36,894 bases of DNA, taken from the NCBI GenBank assembly GCA_903884455.1, contig CAISEW010000028.1:1-36894 (forward strand). Reading direction: 5' to 3'. This DNA is from an uncultured Chloroflexota bacterium. Lineage in GTDB: Bacteria > Chloroflexota > Dehalococcoidia > GIF9 > AB-539-J10. A program made the position numbers and the translations under genes. Of this stretch, positions 6,238 through 36,894 are shown piece by piece (within the stretch, counting starts at the first letter, position 1; every line of letters begins with the position of its first letter). The notes beneath the pieces are model-generated. The model was not told the origin of the DNA, searched no databases, and worked only from the letters and a program-made list of their open reading frames with translations.

Positions 6238-9200
6238 TCAGGCGCAATTAGAGTGTAGTATCTCTTCCAGAACCACTTTCCATCTATCCCCCAGGAGCCT
6301 AGTGTCCAACTTGATTTGTGTGGCGCCTATTTTAACTGCGCCATCAAGATATTTACTCATAACTTCCCCTGCCCCTCTTATCTTAAGAGGGGAATTAATG
6401 GTCTGGGGCTTTATGACAATTTGCCTGCCCTGTGTGGAAATAGAGCTTATCTTAGCCCTCATAGCCAGAACCTTGATTTTCACAATGTAAAGAAGATTGT
6501 CCACAGGCTCGGGCAAAGGACCGAATCTATCTTCAAATTCCTGAGCTATGTCGGCTACCTCTTCAATATGTTCCACCTTGGCCAGTCTGTGGTAAAGGCT
6601 TAACCGAGTATTTAGATTGGAAACATACTCTTCCGGTATGTGGGCGGCTAAGCGCAGGGATATGCTGGGAGATTGCTTCGCTTCGCTCGCAATGACACTC
6701 GTCCTCACTTCGCCAGCTTGCTTGGCTTTCAACTCCTCCACTGCCTCAGCCAGCAACTGGCAATAAAGGTCAAAGCCCAGGGCCGCGATATGCCCGCTTT
6801 GCTTGACACCTAAAAGATTGCCCGCTCCCCGAATTTCCAGGTCCTTCATGGCGATACCAAATCCCGAACCTAGTTCGGTAGCCTCGAAGATAGTCCTGAG
6901 CCTCTTATAAGCCTGGGGGGTCAGCTGCTTCCCCTCTTCAAAGAAGAAATAAGCATAAGCCTGGTTGATGCCCCGCCCCACCCTACCCCTCAACTGATAA
7001 AGCTGAGCTAGGCCGAACCTGTCCGCCCGGTCAATAATCAGCGTATTAACATTAGGCATATCCAGACCTAACTGGATAATAGTGGTGGTCACCAGAATGT
7101 CATACTTGTCAGCGATAAAATCCGTCATCACCTTTTCCAATTGCTCTTCAGGCATTCGCCCATGAGCTATGGCTATTCGAGCCTCGGGCACTAAATCCTG
7201 TAATTTTCTGGCAGCCCAAGCAATGCTTTGAACGCGGTTATGAACAAAGAAGACCTGACCATTCCTCTCCAGTTCACGCAATACCACCTGTCTGACCAGA
7301 GTGTCATCATAACCCCCGACATAGGTCTGGACAGACAGGCGTTCTTCAGGAGGCGTTCCCACAACGCTCATATCTCTGATTCCGGTTAAAGACATGTGAA
7401 GGGTGCGCGGGATGGGAGTAGCACTGAGAGCCAAAGTGTCCACTTCCTTCCTTATTTGCTTGAGTTTTTCCTTCTGCACCACGCCAAACTGTTGTTCTTC
7501 ATCGATTATCGCCAGTCCCAGGTCTTTGAACACGACGTCTTTTTGCAACAGGCGATGAGTGCCAATGCATATATCCACAGTGCCATTGGCTAAGCCTTCC
7601 AGGATTTCCCGTTCTTTTTCCGGCAGACAGAAGCGGCTCAACATTTCTACTCTTAAGGGAAAGGTTTGCAACCTCTCAGTAAAGGTAATGAAATGTTGCT
7701 GAGCCAACACTGTGGTCGGGACCAGAATAGCCACTTGTTTATTATCCATAACCGACTTAAAGGCAGCACGCAATGCTATCTCGGTTTTGCCATAGCCCAC
7801 GTCTCCACAGATGAGCCGGTCCATGGGCTTAGCTTTTTCCATGTCCTCCTTCACTGTCATAATTGCCTCAATCTGATCCGGTGTTTCCATATAGGGAAAT
7901 GATGCCTCTAGCTCCTGTTGCCATAGTGAATCTGTAGAGAAAGCGAAGCCCGGAGCTACTTCCCGAGCAGCATAAAGGTCAAGTAGCTCCTGAGCAATTT
8001 CCGCCACTGATTCTTTAACCCTGTTCTTGGTCCTTTGCCATTCCGGGGTTCTCAAACGGCTCAAGTGTGGTGCCTGGTCGCCAGCACCGATATAGCGACT
8101 AACGCGGTCTATCCGTTCAGTAGGCACATAGAGCCTGTCACCAGCGGCATACTCTAAAACAAGGTATTCTCTCTCAATTCCATCGGAGGACATCCTGGCC
8201 AGACCATGGAACCTGGCGATGCCATGGTCAACATGGACGACATAATCGCCGGGAGCTAATTGAGGAAGAAACCATTGGTGAGGTATTGGCCTCTTCCTGC
8301 CTGCTCGCGGCTGCTTCACAAAGCCAAAGAGCTCAGCATCAGTGATAAGGGTCAGCCTGTCATCCATCACCCAGCCTCCGTCCAGTGAACCCTGGAGCAG
8401 GGTGATTGAACCGGGCGGAGGTATCTGTTCTATCTGTGATGAGGGCGAAGTATGAATGTCCTCTTTCTGGAGGAGTTCAGCCAAACGATTTGCCTGATGG
8501 CTGACTACGAACACGCGCTGTCTTTGTTCCACCATTTGCCCAGCTGTTTTGAGGAACCTTTCCAGTTGGCTGCCATAACTCTGAGCTCTGATGAAGGGCA
8601 AAGCCTGTCCAGAGCCCTGGGCGGCATCCCATGTTGCCAGCGCCAGGCGATGCCTTTCTTTCATCTGCGACTCTAATTCCTCCCAGGTGAGATAAGGAGA
8701 GGGAAAATCCCGAGGCAGCTCGCCTTTCTCCATCTTTGTGGCCCTTAATTCTTGTGTTTCCTCGCTTAGCCTAATGACGGCAAGTTCAATTCCTTCAGGG
8801 TCATCGAGAACAAGTAAGGCATCACTGCCAAGATAGTCAAGGACGCTGCCAGCCACCACCTCAGAGTTATCAGCCATTGGCATAAACTCTCTAGCCGGGG
8901 TGACAATCAATGAGGATACGAGGCTGGTTGAGCGCTGGCTTTCCGGGTCAAAGCACCTCATGCCCTCTATCTGGTTGCCAAAGAACTCTATGCGAACTGG
9001 CAACTGGCTGCAAGGGGGGAAGACATCAATAATGCCACCCCGTTTGTTCATCTGTCCGGGCACTTCGACAACGTCCTCCATTTCGTAGCCCATGCTTTGC
9101 CATCGGCGCAGTAGATCCAGGGGGTCAGCAGCCACGCCCTGCTTTAGAATATGGCAGGCAGCCACAAAATCTCTTTGCGGGATGGTTTTACTCATGATTG

Positions 9201-31083: not shown

Positions 31084-31156
31084 GGCAGCGTAGCTCAGGT
31101 GGTAGAGCAGGGGACTCATAAGCCCTTGGTCGCTGGTTCAACTCCAGCCGCTGCCA
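31084..31156 (+). tRNA. tRNA-Met (anticodon CAT), elongator type
   Basis: 73 bases. Acceptor GGCAGCG pairs fully with CGCTGCC; D-stem GCTC/GAGC with loop AGGTGGTA; anticodon stem GGGGA/GCCCT with loop CTCATAA (anticodon CAT); variable TGGTC; T-stem GCTGG/CCAGC with loop TTCAACT; discriminator A at 31156. The first pair is G1:C72, not the C1 x A72 mismatch of initiators, so it should be elongator tRNA-Met. A lysidine-modified tRNA-Ile2 cannot be excluded. CCA is not fully encoded. Its 3' end is repeated four times downstream. Confidence 0.95.
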
Positions 31157-31247
31157 CTTATTGTTTCCCCGGTGAGTTCCCTTCAACAAACTGTGAGTAT
31201 TGATTCAGGTGCGTTATTATTTGGAATAGCATTGCTCTGGAGGGCAA

Positions 31248-31414
31248 ATGAAGGTAGCTAGAATCGTTGCACCATTTGGTCTTAGTGCAGTGCTTTTTAT
31301 CCTGGCATATCTGTCCAGCAAAGATAGCGACAGTGGTTACTTCCCGATAATGCCATGGGAATCGGGATAGCACTGGCAATTGTTGGCATTGCAGCTATCT
31401 TCTCAAATAAATGA
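31248..31414 (+). pseudogene. Small two-helix membrane protein, broken by a one-base frameshift
   Basis: ATG 31248 has a good GGAGGG site 4 bases upstream. The frame reads MKVARIVAPFGLSAVLFILA (first membrane helix), then KDSDSGYFPIMP, and then runs to TAG at 31368. In a shifted frame from 31355 it continues MGIGIALAIVGIAAIFSNK to TGA at 31414, a perfect second helix. One added A in CCATGGG would join them into about 55 residues. It is the only gene in segment 1 of the tRNA-end array. Family not recognised. Confidence 0.6.
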
Positions 31415-31446
31415 ACCCTTTTCGAGACTGACCCTCTATGCCTTAT

Positions 31447-31470
31447 GGTTCAAGTGCAGCTGCTGCCACT
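31447..31470 (+). repeat. tRNA-Met 3'-end repeat, copy 2
   Basis: GGTTCAAGTGCAGCTGCTGCCACT against GGTTCAACTCCAGCCGCTGCCACT in the tRNA: 3 mismatches in 24. Same orientation as the tRNA. The stop codon of a 32-residue minus-strand gene lies 13 bases further on. Confidence 0.8.
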
Positions 31471-31482
31471 TCAAGCAGTTTC

Positions 31483-31581
31483 TTACTTCTTCTTGGCAGG
31501 CGCTTTTTTCTCTTTTGCCGGCTTCGCTGCAGGTTTAGCGGCGGATTGCCCCGGGTTGTGGGTCTTGCAAGTCTGACACAT
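31483..31581 (-). CDS. 32-residue CxxC protein with Lys/Ala/Pro-rich tail
   Basis: Begins MCQTCKTHNPGQ and continues as a histone-H1-like basic tail of AAKPA / EKKAPAKKK units. The expression signals are unusually good: AAGGAGG (31590-31596) 8 bases before the ATG, and an upstream TTGGCA-18-TATAAT promoter. It fills segment 2 of the tRNA-end array almost completely. The single CxxC could bind metal as a dimer and the tail could bind nucleic acid; both are inference. Too short to match a known family by eye. Confidence 0.65.
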   Translation of the reverse strand: MCQTCKTHNPGQSAAKPAAKPAKEKKAPAKKK

Positions 31582-31613
31582 ATTCTTGACCTCCTTGCCT
31601 GTGCTATACCGAG

Positions 31614-31643
31614 ATTATATCAACTAGTTCGTTCTTTTGCCAA
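31614..31643 (-). promoter_or_regulatory. Promoter of the 32-residue CxxC protein
   Basis: Minus strand TTGGCA (31638-31643), 18 bases, perfect TATAAT (31614-31619), 32 bases before the ATG at 31581. It lies wholly inside segment 2, so the small gene carries its own promoter. Confidence 0.65.
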
Positions 31644-31669
31644 CACAGTTGGCCCAAGAAATACACAAT

Positions 31670-31691
31670 GGTTCAAATCCAGCCGCTGCCA
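31670..31691 (+). repeat. tRNA-Met 3'-end repeat, copy 3
   Basis: GGTTCAAATCCAGCCGCTGC plus CA: one mismatch to the tRNA over 22 bases, covering half the T-arm and the whole 3' acceptor strand with discriminator A. Same orientation. 38 bases before the stop of the MerR-type gene. Confidence 0.9.
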
Positions 31692-31728
31692 TATTCTGTA
31701 ATTGCAACAGGATTGGTTCCTCTTGTGC

Positions 31729-32151
31729 TCACTGCCCGTTGGTCAACCTGGCTTGTACTTCTGCAATCAGGTCTTGAACTGCGATACGTAATACTGTCTG
31801 GCCTTCCTTTAACGTGTCCACGAGAACATCATAGTCCTCATAGAAATAGACTGTCTTCCCATCCGTGAGCACTACGAAAGATGATAAAGTCTTGGATTGA
31901 CCTCGTATAAAGCGGAAGCTCGACCGTATCCGCTGTAGAGGCAACGAACTATCCAACAACTTCATCAGTATCTTTAATTCAAAAATGTCTTCTACGGAAT
32001 AGAGACGGCGCGAACCTCTTCCGGATGCTGCTCTCAGACTCGGGCTCACCAGGCCTGTCTTGTCCCAATACACAAGCTGGTTATAGGTAGCGCCGACCAC
32101 ATGTGATACCTCTGAAGTACGGAAGGATACAGGTTTTCTTCTACGCGCCAT
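31729..32151 (-). CDS. MerR-type transcriptional regulator
   Basis: 140 residues. The N-terminal winged-helix DNA-binding domain has the MerR pattern: RTSEVSHVVGATYNQLVYWDKTGLVSPS (about 11-38), SRRLYSVEDIFELKILMKLL, then IRSSFRFIRGQ. The C-terminal part (about 85-140, VLTDGKTVYFYEDYDVLVDT) is a short beta-rich domain rather than a cysteine metal loop, so a metal sensor is unlikely. A perfect 13-base palindrome upstream could be its operator. ATG with weak GGCTGG site. Only gene in segment 3 of the tRNA-end array. Confidence 0.85.
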   Translation of the reverse strand: MARRRKPVSFRTSEVSHVVGATYNQLVYWDKTGLVSPSLRAASGRGSRRLYSVEDIFELKILMKLLDSSLPLQRIRSSFRFIRGQSKTLSSFVVLTDGKTVYFYEDYDVLVDTLKEGQTVLRIAVQDLIAEVQARLTNGQ

Positions 32152-32171
32152 TGCAAATTCCAGCCAATATG

Positions 32172-32184
32172 ATATGAGTCATAT
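32172..32184. promoter_or_regulatory. Palindromic operator candidate upstream of the MerR-type gene
   Basis: ATATGAGTCATAT, a perfect 6+1+6 palindrome 21 bases before the ATG, next to TATAATTATATGAC on the minus strand. MerR proteins bind such dyads between or beside promoter boxes; autoregulation is inferred. Confidence 0.5.
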
Positions 32185-32210
32185 AATTATACCACTGGCC
32201 GTTTAGACAC

Positions 32211-32234
32211 AGGTGCAAATCCAGCCGCTGCCAC
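32211..32234 (+). repeat. tRNA-Met 3'-end repeat, copy 4
   Basis: AGGTGCAAATCCAGCCGCTG plus CCAC: two mismatches to the tRNA from GGTTCAA onward; the acceptor strand is perfect. It is followed by TACTGTTTTTCTTCTTGGTAG, similar to the bases after copy 2 (TTTCTTACTTCTTCTTGGCAG), so homology reaches beyond the tRNA. Confidence 0.88.
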
Positions 32235-32295
32235 TACTGTTTTTCTTCTTGGTAGCTGGAATTAGAGCCGGAGTTCGAAATTAGAGTGCGCTCTC

Positions 32296-32469
32296 TTAAC
32301 CGCCCACTGCCCGGCCCAGAAAGTATGGCCAGACTACTATGCCCACCAAAATCTGCCACAAAACCAGATGGGCATAACCGACTGTAAATAGCCAGCCGAT
32401 GAACCAAATAGGGCCTATTAAAGTCGCGGAGCGGCGGCGGTGGTACCAATGCTTCTTTTCCTCTGCCAT
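32296..32469 (-). CDS. 57-residue membrane protein of unknown function
   Basis: Starts MAEEKKHWYHRRRSATLIG, then a membrane helix (IGPIWFIGWLFTVGYAHLVL) and a second (WQILVGIVVWPYFLG), ending RAVGG. The basic N-terminus should stay in the cytoplasm. A strong AAAGGAGGACAAC site precedes ATG 32469. It lies downstream of the PrsW-like gene (110-base gap) in segment 4 and may be transcribed with it. The family is not certain; many bacteria have similar tiny two-helix proteins. Confidence 0.72.
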   Translation of the reverse strand: MAEEKKHWYHRRRSATLIGPIWFIGWLFTVGYAHLVLWQILVGIVVWPYFLGRAVGG

Positions 32470-32579
32470 GTTGTCCTCCTTTTACAAGATAAGCTATTCT
32501 TGGTTTGATGACTTTTCCCGGCAATATCTTAATGATAACTTCACTTAATAGCAAAACACTTTTTTTCACGGTCATAACT

Positions 32580-33386
32580 TCACGGAGCTGATATTGCAGG
32601 CTCAGCCGTAGCTGCCGTTTTTCTCCAGCGGAGCCACAAAGCCCAAGCCGTTACCAGCGCGGCTAGCACGGCAATATAGATTTCCACAGGAATGACGGTA
32701 AAGAGTCCCGCCTGCCACAAAACTGCGCCATAGTTCAGTAAGCCGTGCAGAACAGAGGCTATGAGGTAAAACTGCCATCCCCAACCCCTGGCTAGACCAT
32801 AGCCAGCCAGGGCGGAAAAAGCAATATGAGCGGCTACGGTAAAGAACCTCTCCCAAAAATAAGCCAGTGCCACAAAGCCGCCACTTTGCACCCATCCCCA
32901 CGTCCACCCTGAGGCAAAGACGAGATTGTGCACCCACTGCGCTTCAAAGATGCCAAATCCAGCTCCAGCCACAGCGCCGATAGCGAGTCCTAGCTTGGGG
33001 TCAATGTTCTTGCCGCTACGCCACCAGTAGACGACCACGGGCACCAGCTTTGACCCTTCCTGAACCAGTCCGCCGAGGAATATTTGTGGTATCGCCGCCA
33101 GCAAAATCCAGTTCATGAGGACCTCCTCACTCCAGAAATGGTTCAGTGCTTGTCCAGCCCAAATCCCGAGAGGAATTTGAATGAAGCAAAAAGCAACCAG
33201 GGTTAGAAAGGCACTGCCTACGAGGACCGCCCAGAGCCAGGGTTTCTTAAAGAGTGGCGGCCAATAACTGGCCAGCCAGACCGCACCGAAGGCTATAGCC
33301 AGACCAATGGCTATGGCCAGATAAATCCCCGAACCGCTGGGGTTTTGAAAGAAAGAGACGAAATAGCTGACCATGTCATCTATCAT
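32580..33386 (-). CDS. PrsW/YhfC-like intramembrane glutamic protease-family protein
   Basis: 268 residues, seven to eight membrane helices. The family pattern is visible: QEGSKLVP near 109 (the ExxxK motif), FGIFEA near 146, HIAFSALAGYG near 188 and VLHGLLNYG near 213, in the expected order of the PrsW/CAAX-type active site. PrsW cleaves anti-sigma factors in Bacillus; here no anti-sigma gene is near, so the target is unknown. ATG preceded by GGAGGGG. It is the largest gene of the tRNA-end array (segment 4). Confidence 0.8.
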   Translation of the reverse strand: MIDDMVSYFVSFFQNPSGSGIYLAIAIGLAIAFGAVWLASYWPPLFKKPWLWAVLVGSAFLTLVAFCFIQIPLGIWAGQALNHFWSEEVLMNWILLAAIPQIFLGGLVQEGSKLVPVVVYWWRSGKNIDPKLGLAIGAVAGAGFGIFEAQWVHNLVFASGWTWGWVQSGGFVALAYFWERFFTVAAHIAFSALAGYGLARGWGWQFYLIASVLHGLLNYGAVLWQAGLFTVIPVEIYIAVLAALVTAWALWLRWRKTAATAEPAISAP

Positions 33387-33530
33387 GGACCCCTCCTATA
33401 CTTTAAGCTGGTTCTCATCCAATTCATCGTACATGCACCCTTCGACGCCACTTAGCATTCACAACATTATACCTGTATGTGAAATAAAAGAATATACTCT
33501 TGGGCAGGAATGTCCAAGGGCACGTTGTAT

Positions 33531-33578
33531 GTTCTTATAAGACTTGGGGCGTCGGTTCGAGTCCAGCCGCGGCCACTT
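33531..33578 (+). pseudogene. tRNA 3'-half remnant, copy 5 of the tRNA-end repeat
   Basis: GTTCTTATAAGACTTGGGGC, then GTCGGTTCGAGTCCAGCCGC, then GGCCACTT. It aligns with tRNA-Met from the anticodon loop (CTCATAAG against CTTATAAG) to the 3' end and on into ACTT. The T-stem has one mismatch, and the acceptor strand CGCGGCC has no partner GGCCGCG upstream. It is a 3' half only, and more diverged than copies 3 and 4. Confidence 0.8.
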
Positions 33579-33610
33579 TTGTTTTTCACAGTTGAACCTT
33601 CTTTACCGAT

Positions 33611-35023
33611 TTAAACAAGCTTCACAGTATCTTTGTATTGGGGGACTTTTATGGTCCATCCGGTCTTCTCTTTCAAGACCTTCGCAAAGCTCGTGGCTGC
33701 TTTTTCTTCCCCGTGAGTGACAAATACACAGCGCGGCGGGACACGAATATCAGCTAGCCAGGCTAGTAATCCATCACGGTCGGCGTGGGCCGAAAAACCA
33801 TCTATTTTTTCAATATGCGCTTTCACCTGATATATTTGCCCTAAGAGACGGATTTCCCTGGCACCATCCAGCAATATTCTCCCCGGCGTTCCCTCCGCTT
33901 GATAGCCGACAAATAATATTGTGCTTTCTGCCCTCGTGATGTTATTAACAATATGGTGCTTTACACGGCCACCGTTTATCATACCGCTACCAGCTATGAT
34001 GATACTGCTTTCCTTTACGTTATTAATGGCCCTGGACTCTTCCTCAGTCTGTACTATTCTGAGGTTTTCAAAATTAAAAAAGGAATTACCCTGGCGCAGA
34101 CGCTGCATCATCTCTTTGTCAAAGAGTTCAGCGTGATGTTTAAATACTTCGGTAATCCGTATTGCCATAGGGCTATCCAAAAAGACAGGTAAAGAAGGGA
34201 TTTCTTTGCGTAAAAATAATTCGTTCAGGTGATACAGCATCTCCTGGCTCCGCTCCAGAGCGAAACTGGGAACAATGATGTTGCCCCCGGCGCTTACCGT
34301 CCTGTTGATACAATCGCGTAATTGTTTTTGAATATCGATGTTCTCGTGTTCTTCGTGAGTACGATCGCCATAAGTTGACTCTATAACTATATATTCAGCC
34401 TCATCGAAAAGAGTCGGGTCATTTATTATCGGGCGGTGAGGCTCGCCAATATCACCGGAAAAGATTACTCTATGGTTCTGGCCATCCTGTCGGATATTTA
34501 TACTTATGGTTGCCGCCCCAAGTACATGACCCGCTTCATAATAACAGCCTTCGACATTACTGCTGATTCCGACACAACTCAGATATTCTACGGCGGAAAA
34601 ATGCGGCTTAACTGCTTCGGCATCTTTTACAGTATAAAGAGGTATTTCAGGATAAGGACCACGGCGCCCTTCTCTTTTATGGCGTTCCCGCTTAAATATA
34701 GCATCTTCTTCCTGCAGATGTGCGGCATCAAGAAGGATAATCTCGGCTATCTCAGCCGTCGCCTGGGTACAATATATCTTGCCCTTGTAACCTTCACGTA
34801 TCAGTTTAGGTAAAAGTCCACAATGATCAAGATGGGCATGAGTCAAAAAAACAGCATCAATTGACTGAGGGTCAAATAGAAATGACTGCCAGTTTCTCTC
34901 CTGGTACTTACGCTCCTGGTACAGCCCACAATCTACCAACACACGGGTATTTCGGCTCTCTAAAAGATAGCAGGAACCTGTAACATTCCGCGCTGCCCCC
35001 AGAAATGTCAGTTTAGCTAGCAT
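33611..35023 (-). CDS. Metallo-beta-lactamase / beta-CASP RNA nuclease (CPSF-like)
   Basis: 470 residues. H62-x-H64-x-D66-H67 (THAHLDHCG), D31 in LVDCGLYQ, GHVLGAATISI, FSGDIG near 190, the beta-CASP insert (about 205-385: VPSFALERSQEMLYHL, SGMINGGRVKHHI), FSAHADRDGLLAWL and the final THGEEKAATSFA. Homologues such as TTHA0252 cut single-stranded RNA. The ATG has AAGGAGT at 10 bases. It follows the flavodoxin gene by 15 bases, so the two are one unit; a functional tie is not obvious. Confidence 0.93.
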   Translation of the reverse strand: MLAKLTFLGAARNVTGSCYLLESRNTRVLVDCGLYQERKYQERNWQSFLFDPQSIDAVFLTHAHLDHCGLLPKLIREGYKGKIYCTQATAEIAEIILLDAAHLQEEDAIFKRERHKREGRRGPYPEIPLYTVKDAEAVKPHFSAVEYLSCVGISSNVEGCYYEAGHVLGAATISINIRQDGQNHRVIFSGDIGEPHRPIINDPTLFDEAEYIVIESTYGDRTHEEHENIDIQKQLRDCINRTVSAGGNIIVPSFALERSQEMLYHLNELFLRKEIPSLPVFLDSPMAIRITEVFKHHAELFDKEMMQRLRQGNSFFNFENLRIVQTEEESRAINNVKESSIIIAGSGMINGGRVKHHIVNNITRAESTILFVGYQAEGTPGRILLDGAREIRLLGQIYQVKAHIEKIDGFSAHADRDGLLAWLADIRVPPRCVFVTHGEEKAATSFAKVLKEKTGWTIKVPQYKDTVKLV

Positions 35024-35038
35024 AGATGACGCGACTCC

Positions 35039-35512
35039 TTAATAATTTTTTATAGCCTCTTTAGCCCTGGCTATGATTTCTTCGTCAGACACTCCGTACG
35101 ATGTTATGGCAAAAGAGCCTACTACCTTGCCCTGGCTTCTCTCTATTTTAGCCGTTATGTTCGCCAGAGCGTTCTCTGAATTGTTGCCACCCATGGTAAA
35201 GAATGGAATAATACTCCGACCTTCAAAATTTGTCTGGTATATAAACGAGTTAATAGCCGGTGCTGGTCTTGAAGCCCAGATTGGAGAACCGATAAATATC
35301 TTTTCACATTGCTTTAAATCGACATCAATGGGATTTATCTTACTCCCTCTGTTCGTTATAGCTGCGAAGCCACCACTCAAATAGACGAACGGCTTGGGTA
35401 TGGGCCTTCTCTCCTCAATCTCCAATAGCGTGGCATTCAGGGCTTCGGCGATTACCTGAGCTACCAGCTTTGTTTTGCCTGTCAAAGAATAATAAACTAC
35501 CAGCGATTTCAT
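35039..35512 (-). CDS. Flavodoxin-family protein
   Basis: 157 residues from ATG 35512 (MKSLVVYYSLTGKTKLVAQ), chosen for the GGAGGGGG just upstream; an ATG at 35551 would place extra residues over that site. The FMN phosphate loop is YSLTGKT; later loops are GSPIWASRPAPAINSF (about 80-95) and FTMGGNNSENAL. This matches the flavodoxin_4/NAD(P)H-oxidoreductase-like group. Likely a small electron carrier or reductase. First gene of a two-gene unit with the beta-CASP nuclease. Confidence 0.88.
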   Translation of the reverse strand: MKSLVVYYSLTGKTKLVAQVIAEALNATLLEIEERRPIPKPFVYLSGGFAAITNRGSKINPIDVDLKQCEKIFIGSPIWASRPAPAINSFIYQTNFEGRSIIPFFTMGGNNSENALANITAKIERSQGKVVGSFAITSYGVSDEEIIARAKEAIKNY

Positions 35513-35660
35513 GCCCCCTCCGGAGTATCTGTTTCTCGAATTATACCTCACCGGCGTTTTGTATTGAAATCTTGGTTGTATCTAAACTCGTAACCACATC
35601 CCTATTCCTCTTAGTTTACCATGCTATACTTACCAAAAAGCTGCAACTGTGGAGGTGCGT

Positions 35661-36179
35661 ATGTCGCCACGTAAACTTAAGACTGATCCGATAATCCTTG
35701 AGATGCCGTCTCAGAAGATGGCCGTTGTCCAGGGAAAAGGCTCTCCGGACAAAGTCTTCCCTAAGATATTCCCTGCTCTATTCGGCTCAGTTTATACCTT
35801 GAAGTTTGACCTGAAAAAGAGGGGATTGGAGTCCTTTAAGGTGAGCTGCCCTCGTGCTCGCTATCCCAATGCCCATCTCTATCCCAAAGGAGAATGGCTC
35901 ATAATTGCTGGTATCCCTGTGCCAGACAACACTACCTCCTTACCCCAGAAAGAACCGGGCACTGAGGTAAAGATTGAGACCTGGGAATACGGCACGGTAG
36001 CTCAAATTCTTCACCTCGGCCCTTATGACCAGGAAACGAAACCCATTGAGCGCTTGCAACAATTCATCACGGCAAATGGCTATGAAATAGCTGGCCCGCA
36101 CGAAGAAGAATACCAATCAAAGCCAGATGCCAAGATAATTAAGACACTAATCCGGTATCAGGTGAAAAAGAAGAGCTAA
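35661..36179 (+). CDS. GyrI-like small-molecule-binding domain protein
   Basis: 172 residues from ATG 35661, with GGAGGTG 5 bases upstream (an in-frame GTG at 35649 lies before that site and is rejected). SHV-type GyrI/AraC effector-binding fold: the repeat halves carry KMAVVQGKGSPDKVFPKI, and the hallmark AQILHLGPYDQETKPIERLQQF near 125-146, followed by PHEEEYQSKP and a basic end. No DNA-binding domain is attached. Stand-alone members bind or hydrolyse lipophilic compounds; its role here is unknown. Confidence 0.88.
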   Translation: MSPRKLKTDPIILEMPSQKMAVVQGKGSPDKVFPKIFPALFGSVYTLKFDLKKRGLESFKVSCPRARYPNAHLYPKGEWLIIAGIPVPDNTTSLPQKEPGTEVKIETWEYGTVAQILHLGPYDQETKPIERLQQFITANGYEIAGPHEEEYQSKPDAKIIKTLIRYQVKKKS

Positions 36180-36393
36180 TAGCCTGATAAATGTGTGCGT
36201 GGAATGGCAAACATCCCGATGTTTGTGCAATGGTAATAAATTCTAGCTTCGATTAATTTGAAAGGGTCCCCGTACAGAATTACTGGTGAGCACCTTTTGC
36301 AGCTTTGTAGAGTTCGAATTTAGCTGCCTGTTGTTCCCTCTTTTCTTATGCTTTTTCTTGAACCTCGTTATATTCAGATGTTAAGACTAATGT
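36180..36393. other. Gap with one hairpin
   Basis: 214 bases without a credible gene. CAAACAT-CCCG-ATGTTTG (36208-36225) is a perfect 7-bp stem 29 bases after the GyrI-like stop and may be its terminator, though no T-run follows. Confidence 0.4.
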
Positions 36394-36549
36394 CTATCTT
36401 CTTACTCGCGGCACCAGCCAGACAATCAGCAAGATGATTCCAATCACAAGTAAAATCCAGAGGAACGGACCTGCTATGAACTGGAGTAGTAGACCCAGCA
36501 ACCACAAAATCAATAGGATAACGCCAATAATCACGAGCAAATTTAACAT
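36394..36549 (-). CDS. Small hydrophobic membrane protein, DUF5670 (lmo0937) type
   Basis: 51 residues: MLNLLVIIGVILLILWLLGL, a short break with FIAGPFLW, then ILLVIGIILLIVWLV and the basic end PRVRR. Two helices, size and sequence style match the lmo0937/DUF5670 group, often linked to stress. AAAAGGAGGTCAAT directly before ATG 36549. Missed by usual length cut-offs. Confidence 0.8.
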   Translation of the reverse strand: MLNLLVIIGVILLILWLLGLLLQFIAGPFLWILLVIGIILLIVWLVPRVRR

Positions 36550-36711
36550 ATTGACCTCCTTTTACTTATCGGCACTACTCACCTAGCTGCCCAGCAAGGT
36601 GAGCCTGTTTGGTTATTATACAAGCCTCCCTGATAATGACGCTCTGTGTTATGCCAGGCACAAGCAAAACGCTAATTATCGGTGGCTAACTCAGTACCAC
36701 CAAAGTCATCT

Positions 36712-36870
36712 TTAACCGAGGTACGCTATAATAGCCATTATGCCAATGATGATAAGGTAGATACCAACCAAATAGTTTAGTATCTTGGGGAAAATCATAA
36801 CAATAACGCCGAAAATAAGGCTTGCTATCCCCATCCATAGACCTAAAGCTGGAAATGTAATTGCTGGCAT
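36712..36870 (-). CDS. Small membrane protein, DUF3096 type
   Basis: 52 residues: two membrane helices (GLWMGIASLIFGVIVMIFP and YLVGIYLIIIGIMAIIAYLG) joined by KILN; the FPKILNYLVGIYLIIIG core is typical of DUF3096. AAAGGAGG lies 10 bases before ATG 36870. Stop TAA at 36712. It precedes the DUF5670-type gene on the same strand by 162 bases; both may belong to one envelope-stress unit, which is inference. Confidence 0.8.
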   Translation of the reverse strand: MPAITFPALGLWMGIASLIFGVIVMIFPKILNYLVGIYLIIIGIMAIIAYLG

Positions 36871-36894
36871 TAGAATTTTACCTCCTTTCTAAAA

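Follow-up and report, generated by a model that had tools for sequence, protein, structure and literature searches.

Downstream of the methionine tRNA (tRNA-Met) gene in a 36,894-nt stretch of DNA from an uncultured Chloroflexota bacterium (Dehalococcoidia; GIF9; AB-539-J10; contig CAISEW010000028.1 of assembly GCA_903884455.1), the whole of which was analyzed and is hereafter called the window, the 3' end of the tRNA gene recurs as a direct repeat that divides the DNA into segments. We consider this array most likely to be a tRNA-Met accretion island that arose by serial insertion of elements carrying tyrosine integrases. Repeated site-specific insertion at one tRNA had been proposed in a sequence-only reading of the window, and the proposal is now well supported by empty sites, modular junctions, breakpoints at the repeats, and integrases at the same site in relatives.

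The tRNA-Met(CAT) gene at 31084-31157 was the sole tRNA that ARAGORN detected in the window. A 22-mer, GGTTCAANTCCAGCCGCTGCCA, which spans the region from the T-arm to the last tRNA base (base 73), just before the CCA position, occurs at 31135 (within the tRNA) and at 31447, 31670, 32212, and 33554, always on the plus strand and with 0-2 mismatches. Dinucleotide shuffles gave a mean of 0.01 matches to the 22-mer and never the five observed, which confirmed the four additional same-direction copies of the tRNA 3' end reported earlier. Two of the positions then reported (31447 and 31670) were exact, whereas the 22-mer given as starting at 32211 starts at 32212, and 33531 marks where a longer, eroded match begins, whose 22-mer lies at 33554. 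In the left part of this longer match, CTTATAAGACTTGGGGCGTC, a resemblance to the anticodon and variable loops is still visible. The tRNA and its repeat copies are given below, with the junction classes that were obtained by clustering the flanks of every repeat (left, l; right, r).

tRNA-Met (CAT), 31084..31157, plus strand: insertion target (attB); its 3' half provides repeat copy 1, 31135-31156; CCA not encoded (ARAGORN).
Repeat copy 2, 31447..31468, plus strand: 20/22 to the consensus, an eroded attachment (att) scar; junction class l1>r3, also in genomes G007 and G011.
Repeat copy 3, 31670..31691, plus strand: 22/22.
Repeat copy 4, 32212..32233, plus strand: 21/22; its l2 flank is joined to six right flanks in the genus.
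Repeat copy 5, 33531..33575, plus strand: 22-mer at 33554-33575, preceded by eroded sequence that extends the match to the anticodon loop; l4>r4, also in G003 and G006.

The array was compared with metagenome-assembled genomes (MAGs) of Dehalococcoidia (Chloroflexota), 20 of them of the window's genus, including the window's own genome (G000), and 84 of the order. The 22-bp repeat was found in 18 of the 20 genus genomes, in an array headed by the same tRNA-Met. In the collected genus array contigs (396 kb), a threshold of at least 17 of 22 positions yielded 83 matches in the direction of the tRNA and 2 in the opposite direction, with 0 in a reversed-sequence control. Segments in the genus range from 187 bp to 17.6 kb (median, 1.4 kb) and hold one to many genes; one array may contain up to eight repeats, and cassettes are common to several genera. 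Similar arrays, with spacings of 383 bp to 7.5 kb, occurred elsewhere in the order, in further genera and families, and in several arrays of other genera the repeats bear that genome's own tRNA variant, as expected if insertions happened there.

The distal end of the array is a repeat adjoining the 3' end of fpg/mutM, a gene recognized by its sequence (MPELPEVETIKNEL.., together with a zinc finger at the C-terminus). Two genomes from another genus (G052 and G021; loci L175 and L177) have no array, and there fpg lies about 80 nt past tRNA-Met. These empty sites indicate that the array sits within the ancestral tRNA-Met/fpg intergenic region and that the original end of the tRNA has been displaced to become its last repeat. 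In the window genome, which is 99.5% complete, the only further good copies of the 22-mer are two on contig C37 (138002 and 140098), besides one site with 2 mismatches at C37:10831. Contigs of four relatives (G018, G013, G007, and G016) contain a match to the end of the window contig and then a match to reversed C37, which places the two C37 repeats in the same array as the window; the segment cut by the window's end probably continues on reversed C37 and would end at the repeat beside fpg.

Partial copies of the fpg 3' end (70-240 bp) were seen after internal repeats in the arrays of G000:C37 (L057), G009, G013, and G017; some of them adjoin a 572-aa plus-strand gene, as if the distal site and part of fpg had been duplicated. 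A stray distal repeat at 6328-6349 of G003:C56 (L076), with its left flank and an fpg 3' fragment (about 230 bp beyond), is located outside the array, beside a DAHP synthase gene.

Comparison of flanking sequences shows the repeats to be real recombination points. The tRNA body is joined to ten right-flank classes, l1 to four, and l2 to six, and right flanks r0, r2, and others are each joined to several left flanks. In G003 and G006, the tRNA is fused straight to the sequence that follows repeat copy 3 of the window (tattctgc.., merR), so that the first two segments of the window are precisely absent there. Ends of pairwise alignments (high-scoring segment pairs) lay within 30 bp of a repeat in 25% of cases, versus 4.8% at random (9.9% in the highest of 1000 random sets); an alignment breakpoint occurred within 40 bp of 61 of the 74 repeats. 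Families of 584, 128, 245, and 87 aa occur on opposite sides of the MerR or metallo-beta-lactamase (MBL) genes in different genomes; gene order is thus no simple subset of one ancestral order, and deletion alone is insufficient to explain it. Whether tRNA-Met has an encoded CCA depends on which segment follows. Among the genomes compared, we found neither relatives with the same genes at this place lacking the repeats nor repeats placed at random with respect to gene ends, the two outcomes that the sequence-only reading had named as telling against it.

Tyrosine integrases are associated with this tRNA in relatives. An intact 316-aa integrase gene (L240:10604-11554) lies between two repeats of the tRNA-Met array of G027, a member of another family, and G075 has a near-intact relative (83%). 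C-terminal remnants of the same type occur 16-57 nt past repeats or the tRNA (L168, L169 twice, L171, and L176), inside the arrays of G009, G013, and G005, and at C37:143018 of the window genome; among the better copies, identity across the order is 72-97%. G021 has a distinct integrase immediately 3' of a tRNA-Met gene. The sequence of an IMG/VR contig (L252) opens at the tRNA-Met anticodon loop, and the 3' half of the tRNA is followed there by a third integrase and then by phage tail and head-tail genes. Pairwise identity between the integrases at tRNA-Met is 23-28%, and this distant relationship indicates that several have used this tRNA. The window contig has no tyrosine recombinase, and the arrays of the genus contain only C-terminal remnants. 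The earlier statement that no recombinase is seen thus holds for the window but not for the same genome's probable array continuation, where the remnant on C37 lies, nor for the array of G027.

The G021 integrase and its relatives form a family (L181, L190/L201, L194, and L191) that lies directly downstream of different tRNAs: tRNA-Met, tRNA-Val in two genomes, in one of them as a remnant, and, for a more distant relative, tRNA-Glu. Decayed integrase C-termini unlike the array remnants were observed 5' of tRNA-Met and pointing at it in G010:C59:8396-8527 and G004:C25:11082-11198 (L144 and L146). Integrase splitting by attP, in the style of the Sulfolobus spindle-shaped virus SSV, was considered on account of C-terminal remnants right after repeats and was dropped, because the G027 gene is continuous and no matching N-terminal halves were seen before repeats. 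Serine recombinases (PF00239) are patchily distributed, in 10 of the 20 genus genomes (in the window genome on C29 and C3), and were ruled out as the array enzyme because none was on any array contig examined, including the window contig.

In the mechanism that we propose, tyrosine integrases borne by phages or islands would have recombined attP sites into the tRNA-Met gene; each attP would have included a duplicate of the tRNA that began in the anticodon or the T-loop and ended at base 73. Every insertion would have restored the tRNA and moved the previous 3' end away from it. For integrases that came later, the tRNA and any repeat still present may have served as targets, and the elements would thereby have piled up between tRNA-Met and fpg. 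The integrases, like other mobility genes, would then have been lost to deletion or mutation, leaving short cargo segments between att scars, and deletion, excision, and re-insertion between repeats may have swapped neighbors and order as the genus diverged. The integrases found in relatives presumably recombine these sites, the vehicles were presumably conjugative elements or phages, and the present cassettes are probably largely immobile.

The cargo of the window is as follows; ORF denotes an open reading frame.

Segment 1, 31158..31446, plus strand: small ORF, 55 aa in relatives and truncated to 40 aa in the window (31248-31370).
Segment 2, 31469..31669, minus strand: 32-aa ORF at 31483-31581 with a Shine-Dalgarno-like AGGAGG, an ORF called by reading the sequence only.
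Segment 3, 31692..32211, minus strand: MerR-type regulator at 31729-32151 (Pfam E value, 1e-10).
Segment 4, 32234..33553, minus strand: conserved 57-aa ORF at 32296-32469 and PrsW-type protein at 32580-33386 (Pfam E value, 2e-8).
Segment 5, 33576..36894, minus strand, cut by the contig end: beta-CASP MBL nuclease at 33611-35023 and flavodoxin at 35039-35551.

The MerR-type gene is present in the arrays of 13 genomes, and the PrsW-type gene also follows a repeat in another genus (L167). The beta-CASP MBL nuclease scored 432 bits against the NCBIfam model of type VII CRISPR Cas14 (cut-off, 800) and 328 bits against the aCPSF1 model (cut-off, 580), and is a bacterial relative of archaeal-type RNA nucleases. 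The segments had been described as single-gene cassettes: minus-strand genes do end close to copies 2, 3, 4, and 5 (14, 37, 62, and 35 nt past them, respectively), but segment 4 holds two genes and segment 1 a plus-strand ORF. In the genus, 69 of 78 repeats have a minus-strand gene as the next gene (69:9), often with its stop codon 5-70 nt off; counted once per gene family, the ratio is 11:3 (11/14; p = 0.057), and in other genera, where the ORFs are unsupported, it is 19 to 12. The orientation signal for gene-plus-site units is suggestive, not strong.

Several points weigh against the accretion of integrase-borne elements. The gene-3'-end-by-repeat layout is not directly predicted by random accretion. 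The window genome, for all its completeness, contains no intact array-type integrase, so that the enzyme had to be deduced from relatives. Repeats away from the tRNA match at 22/22 in several genomes, which could mean continuing activity. All the data are from MAGs, and some array pieces are on separate contigs.

An alternative is an integron-like system, in which a recombinase encoded on the chromosome would act in trans and continually excise small gene-plus-site cassettes and insert them at tRNA-Met, the tRNA being the entry site and each cassette's site lying at the 3' end of its gene. We regard this as unlikely, even though cassette order differs between genomes, most genes end 5-70 nt from a repeat, and small cassettes occur in other families as well. 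A candidate enzyme exists in the form of a widely conserved pair of Xer-like recombinases, which belong to a conserved trio in the genus:

Xer-like trio, L149:8332-10794 (G000:C60), also at L148, L150-L155, and L076: Xer-like recombinase A (311 aa), a 193-aa protein, and a second Xer-like recombinase (329 aa); in several members of the genus, the trio adjoins an ABC-transporter-like operon.

Both recombinases scored below the NCBIfam cut-offs for XerC and XerD, and the first reached 124 bits against the integron integrase model (cut-off, 265). However, no tRNA-Met repeat was found beside the trio, save the one stray repeat in G003:C56, and the integrase remnants within arrays imply that the elements carried their own enzymes. 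Long multigene segments also argue against small-cassette traffic. Furthermore, the repeats decay about as fast as their surroundings: at orthologous junctions, each shared by two species (42 non-independent pairs), the repeat was 82% identical versus 79% and 78% for the 40-nt flanks, and the repeats had been chosen for likeness to the consensus, which biases their identity upward. These values thus give no sign that the sites are maintained, although the copies still at 22/22 suggest that insertions may have gone on into recent times in some lineages. The resemblance to an integron array that was noted at the outset therefore stands as an analogy only: cassettes change position and most gene 3' ends lie by a repeat, but the repeats erode like their flanks, segments span 0.19-17.6 kb, and integrase remnants lie inside the arrays. 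A live genus-wide system, in which the host-resident Xer-like pair would shuffle single-gene cassettes at the T-loop site of tRNA-Met as an integron analogue with a tRNA 3' end as its site, appears quite improbable.

It is very unlikely that homologous (RecA) or illegitimate recombination between the short repeats alone, after one or a few insertions, made the rearrangements. Deletion between direct repeats can explain the cassettes missing beside the tRNA in G003 and G006, but the repeats are only 22-45 bp long and diverged, deletion cannot invert cassette order, for which at least four families conflict, and tRNA-Met-directed integrases exist in relatives. That the repeats are RNA-level elements of the minus-strand genes (3' hairpins or tRNA-like processing signals) and not recombination scars is hardly credible: the T-arm forms a hairpin on either strand just past stop codons, but the repeat ends exactly at tRNA base 73, decays like its flanks, and coincides with synteny breakpoints, and the ancestral site is a bare tRNA.

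Accretion islands of this kind are already known as tandem ssrA islands, additive tRNA islands, and cis-mobilizable elements (CIMEs) and microCIMEs. The novelty lies in the host group and the target, in cassettes that are small and shuffled, and in a series from empty site through intact integrase to scar that can be followed across the order; one search of the literature for tRNA cassettes of an integron-like type in Chloroflexi gave no result. Characteristic features of accretion arrays, namely bounding same-direction repeats, an empty site, variable content broken at the repeats, and an integrase linked to the site in some members, were all found at tRNA-Met. In the same bacterial class, Dehalococcoides ssrA genomic islands are tandem, bounded by 20-bp repeats of the RNA-gene 3' end (28 repeats analyzed), and inserted at the T-loop; many lack an integration module, and accretion of CIMEs was proposed (McMurdie 2011, PMC3146451). 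The two systems share tandem islands bounded by RNA-gene 3'-end repeats, but those islands target ssrA with the serine recombinase DsiB, whereas the array described here has tRNA-Met as target and a tyrosine integrase, many segments of only one or two genes, and a different, uncultured lineage as host.

Among additive islands, flexible genomic island 2 (fGI-2) of Methylophilaceae has the last 20 bp of tRNA-Lys as a recurring repeat, with islands of 330 bp-42 kb and 1-63 coding sequences (PMC10872708), and fGI1 of Actinomarinales consists of small cassettes at tRNAs with tRNA-fragment repeats, exchanged between genera (PMC7771536). For the tRNA-Met array, in contrast, the integrase family, empty site, and order changes were traced across the order, and the repeats were shown to decay like their flanks. 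Streptococcus CIMEs and microCIMEs are att-bounded remnants without recombination genes that become tandem by accretion and measure 130-220 bp (no gene) or 1.2-13 kb (PMC7563491). A CIME is by definition derived from an integrative and conjugative or an integrative and mobilizable element and can be mobilized in cis once a functional element has accreted beside it; of these traits, att-bounded segments without an integrase are what is known for the window, and, unlike in Streptococcus, up to eight repeats occur per array and cassettes are common to genera. Tycheposons share the tRNA-Met target (PMC10872708) but are large cargo elements at a tRNA with their own tyrosine recombinase, whereas the window has small segments and no recombinase. 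With integrons, the array shares a row of short cassettes in mostly one gene orientation, a site by the gene 3' end, and variable order; it has neither IntI nor attI, and where attC sites have a GTTRRRY core, an imperfect folded stem, and a variable middle, its repeat is a plain tRNA 3' half whose core reads, by inspection, GTTCAAA, and its sites show no sign of being maintained.

These results provide uncultured Dehalococcoidia with a well-delimited hotspot of gene gain, comprising the target, the empty site, the family of the entry enzyme, and about fifty bounded segments. Because the site exists across the order in intact, partly eroded, and empty form, it can serve to study how integrative elements shrink to single retained genes. 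The accretion known from Dehalococcoides reductive dehalogenase islands at ssrA also occurs at another RNA gene and with another enzyme class.

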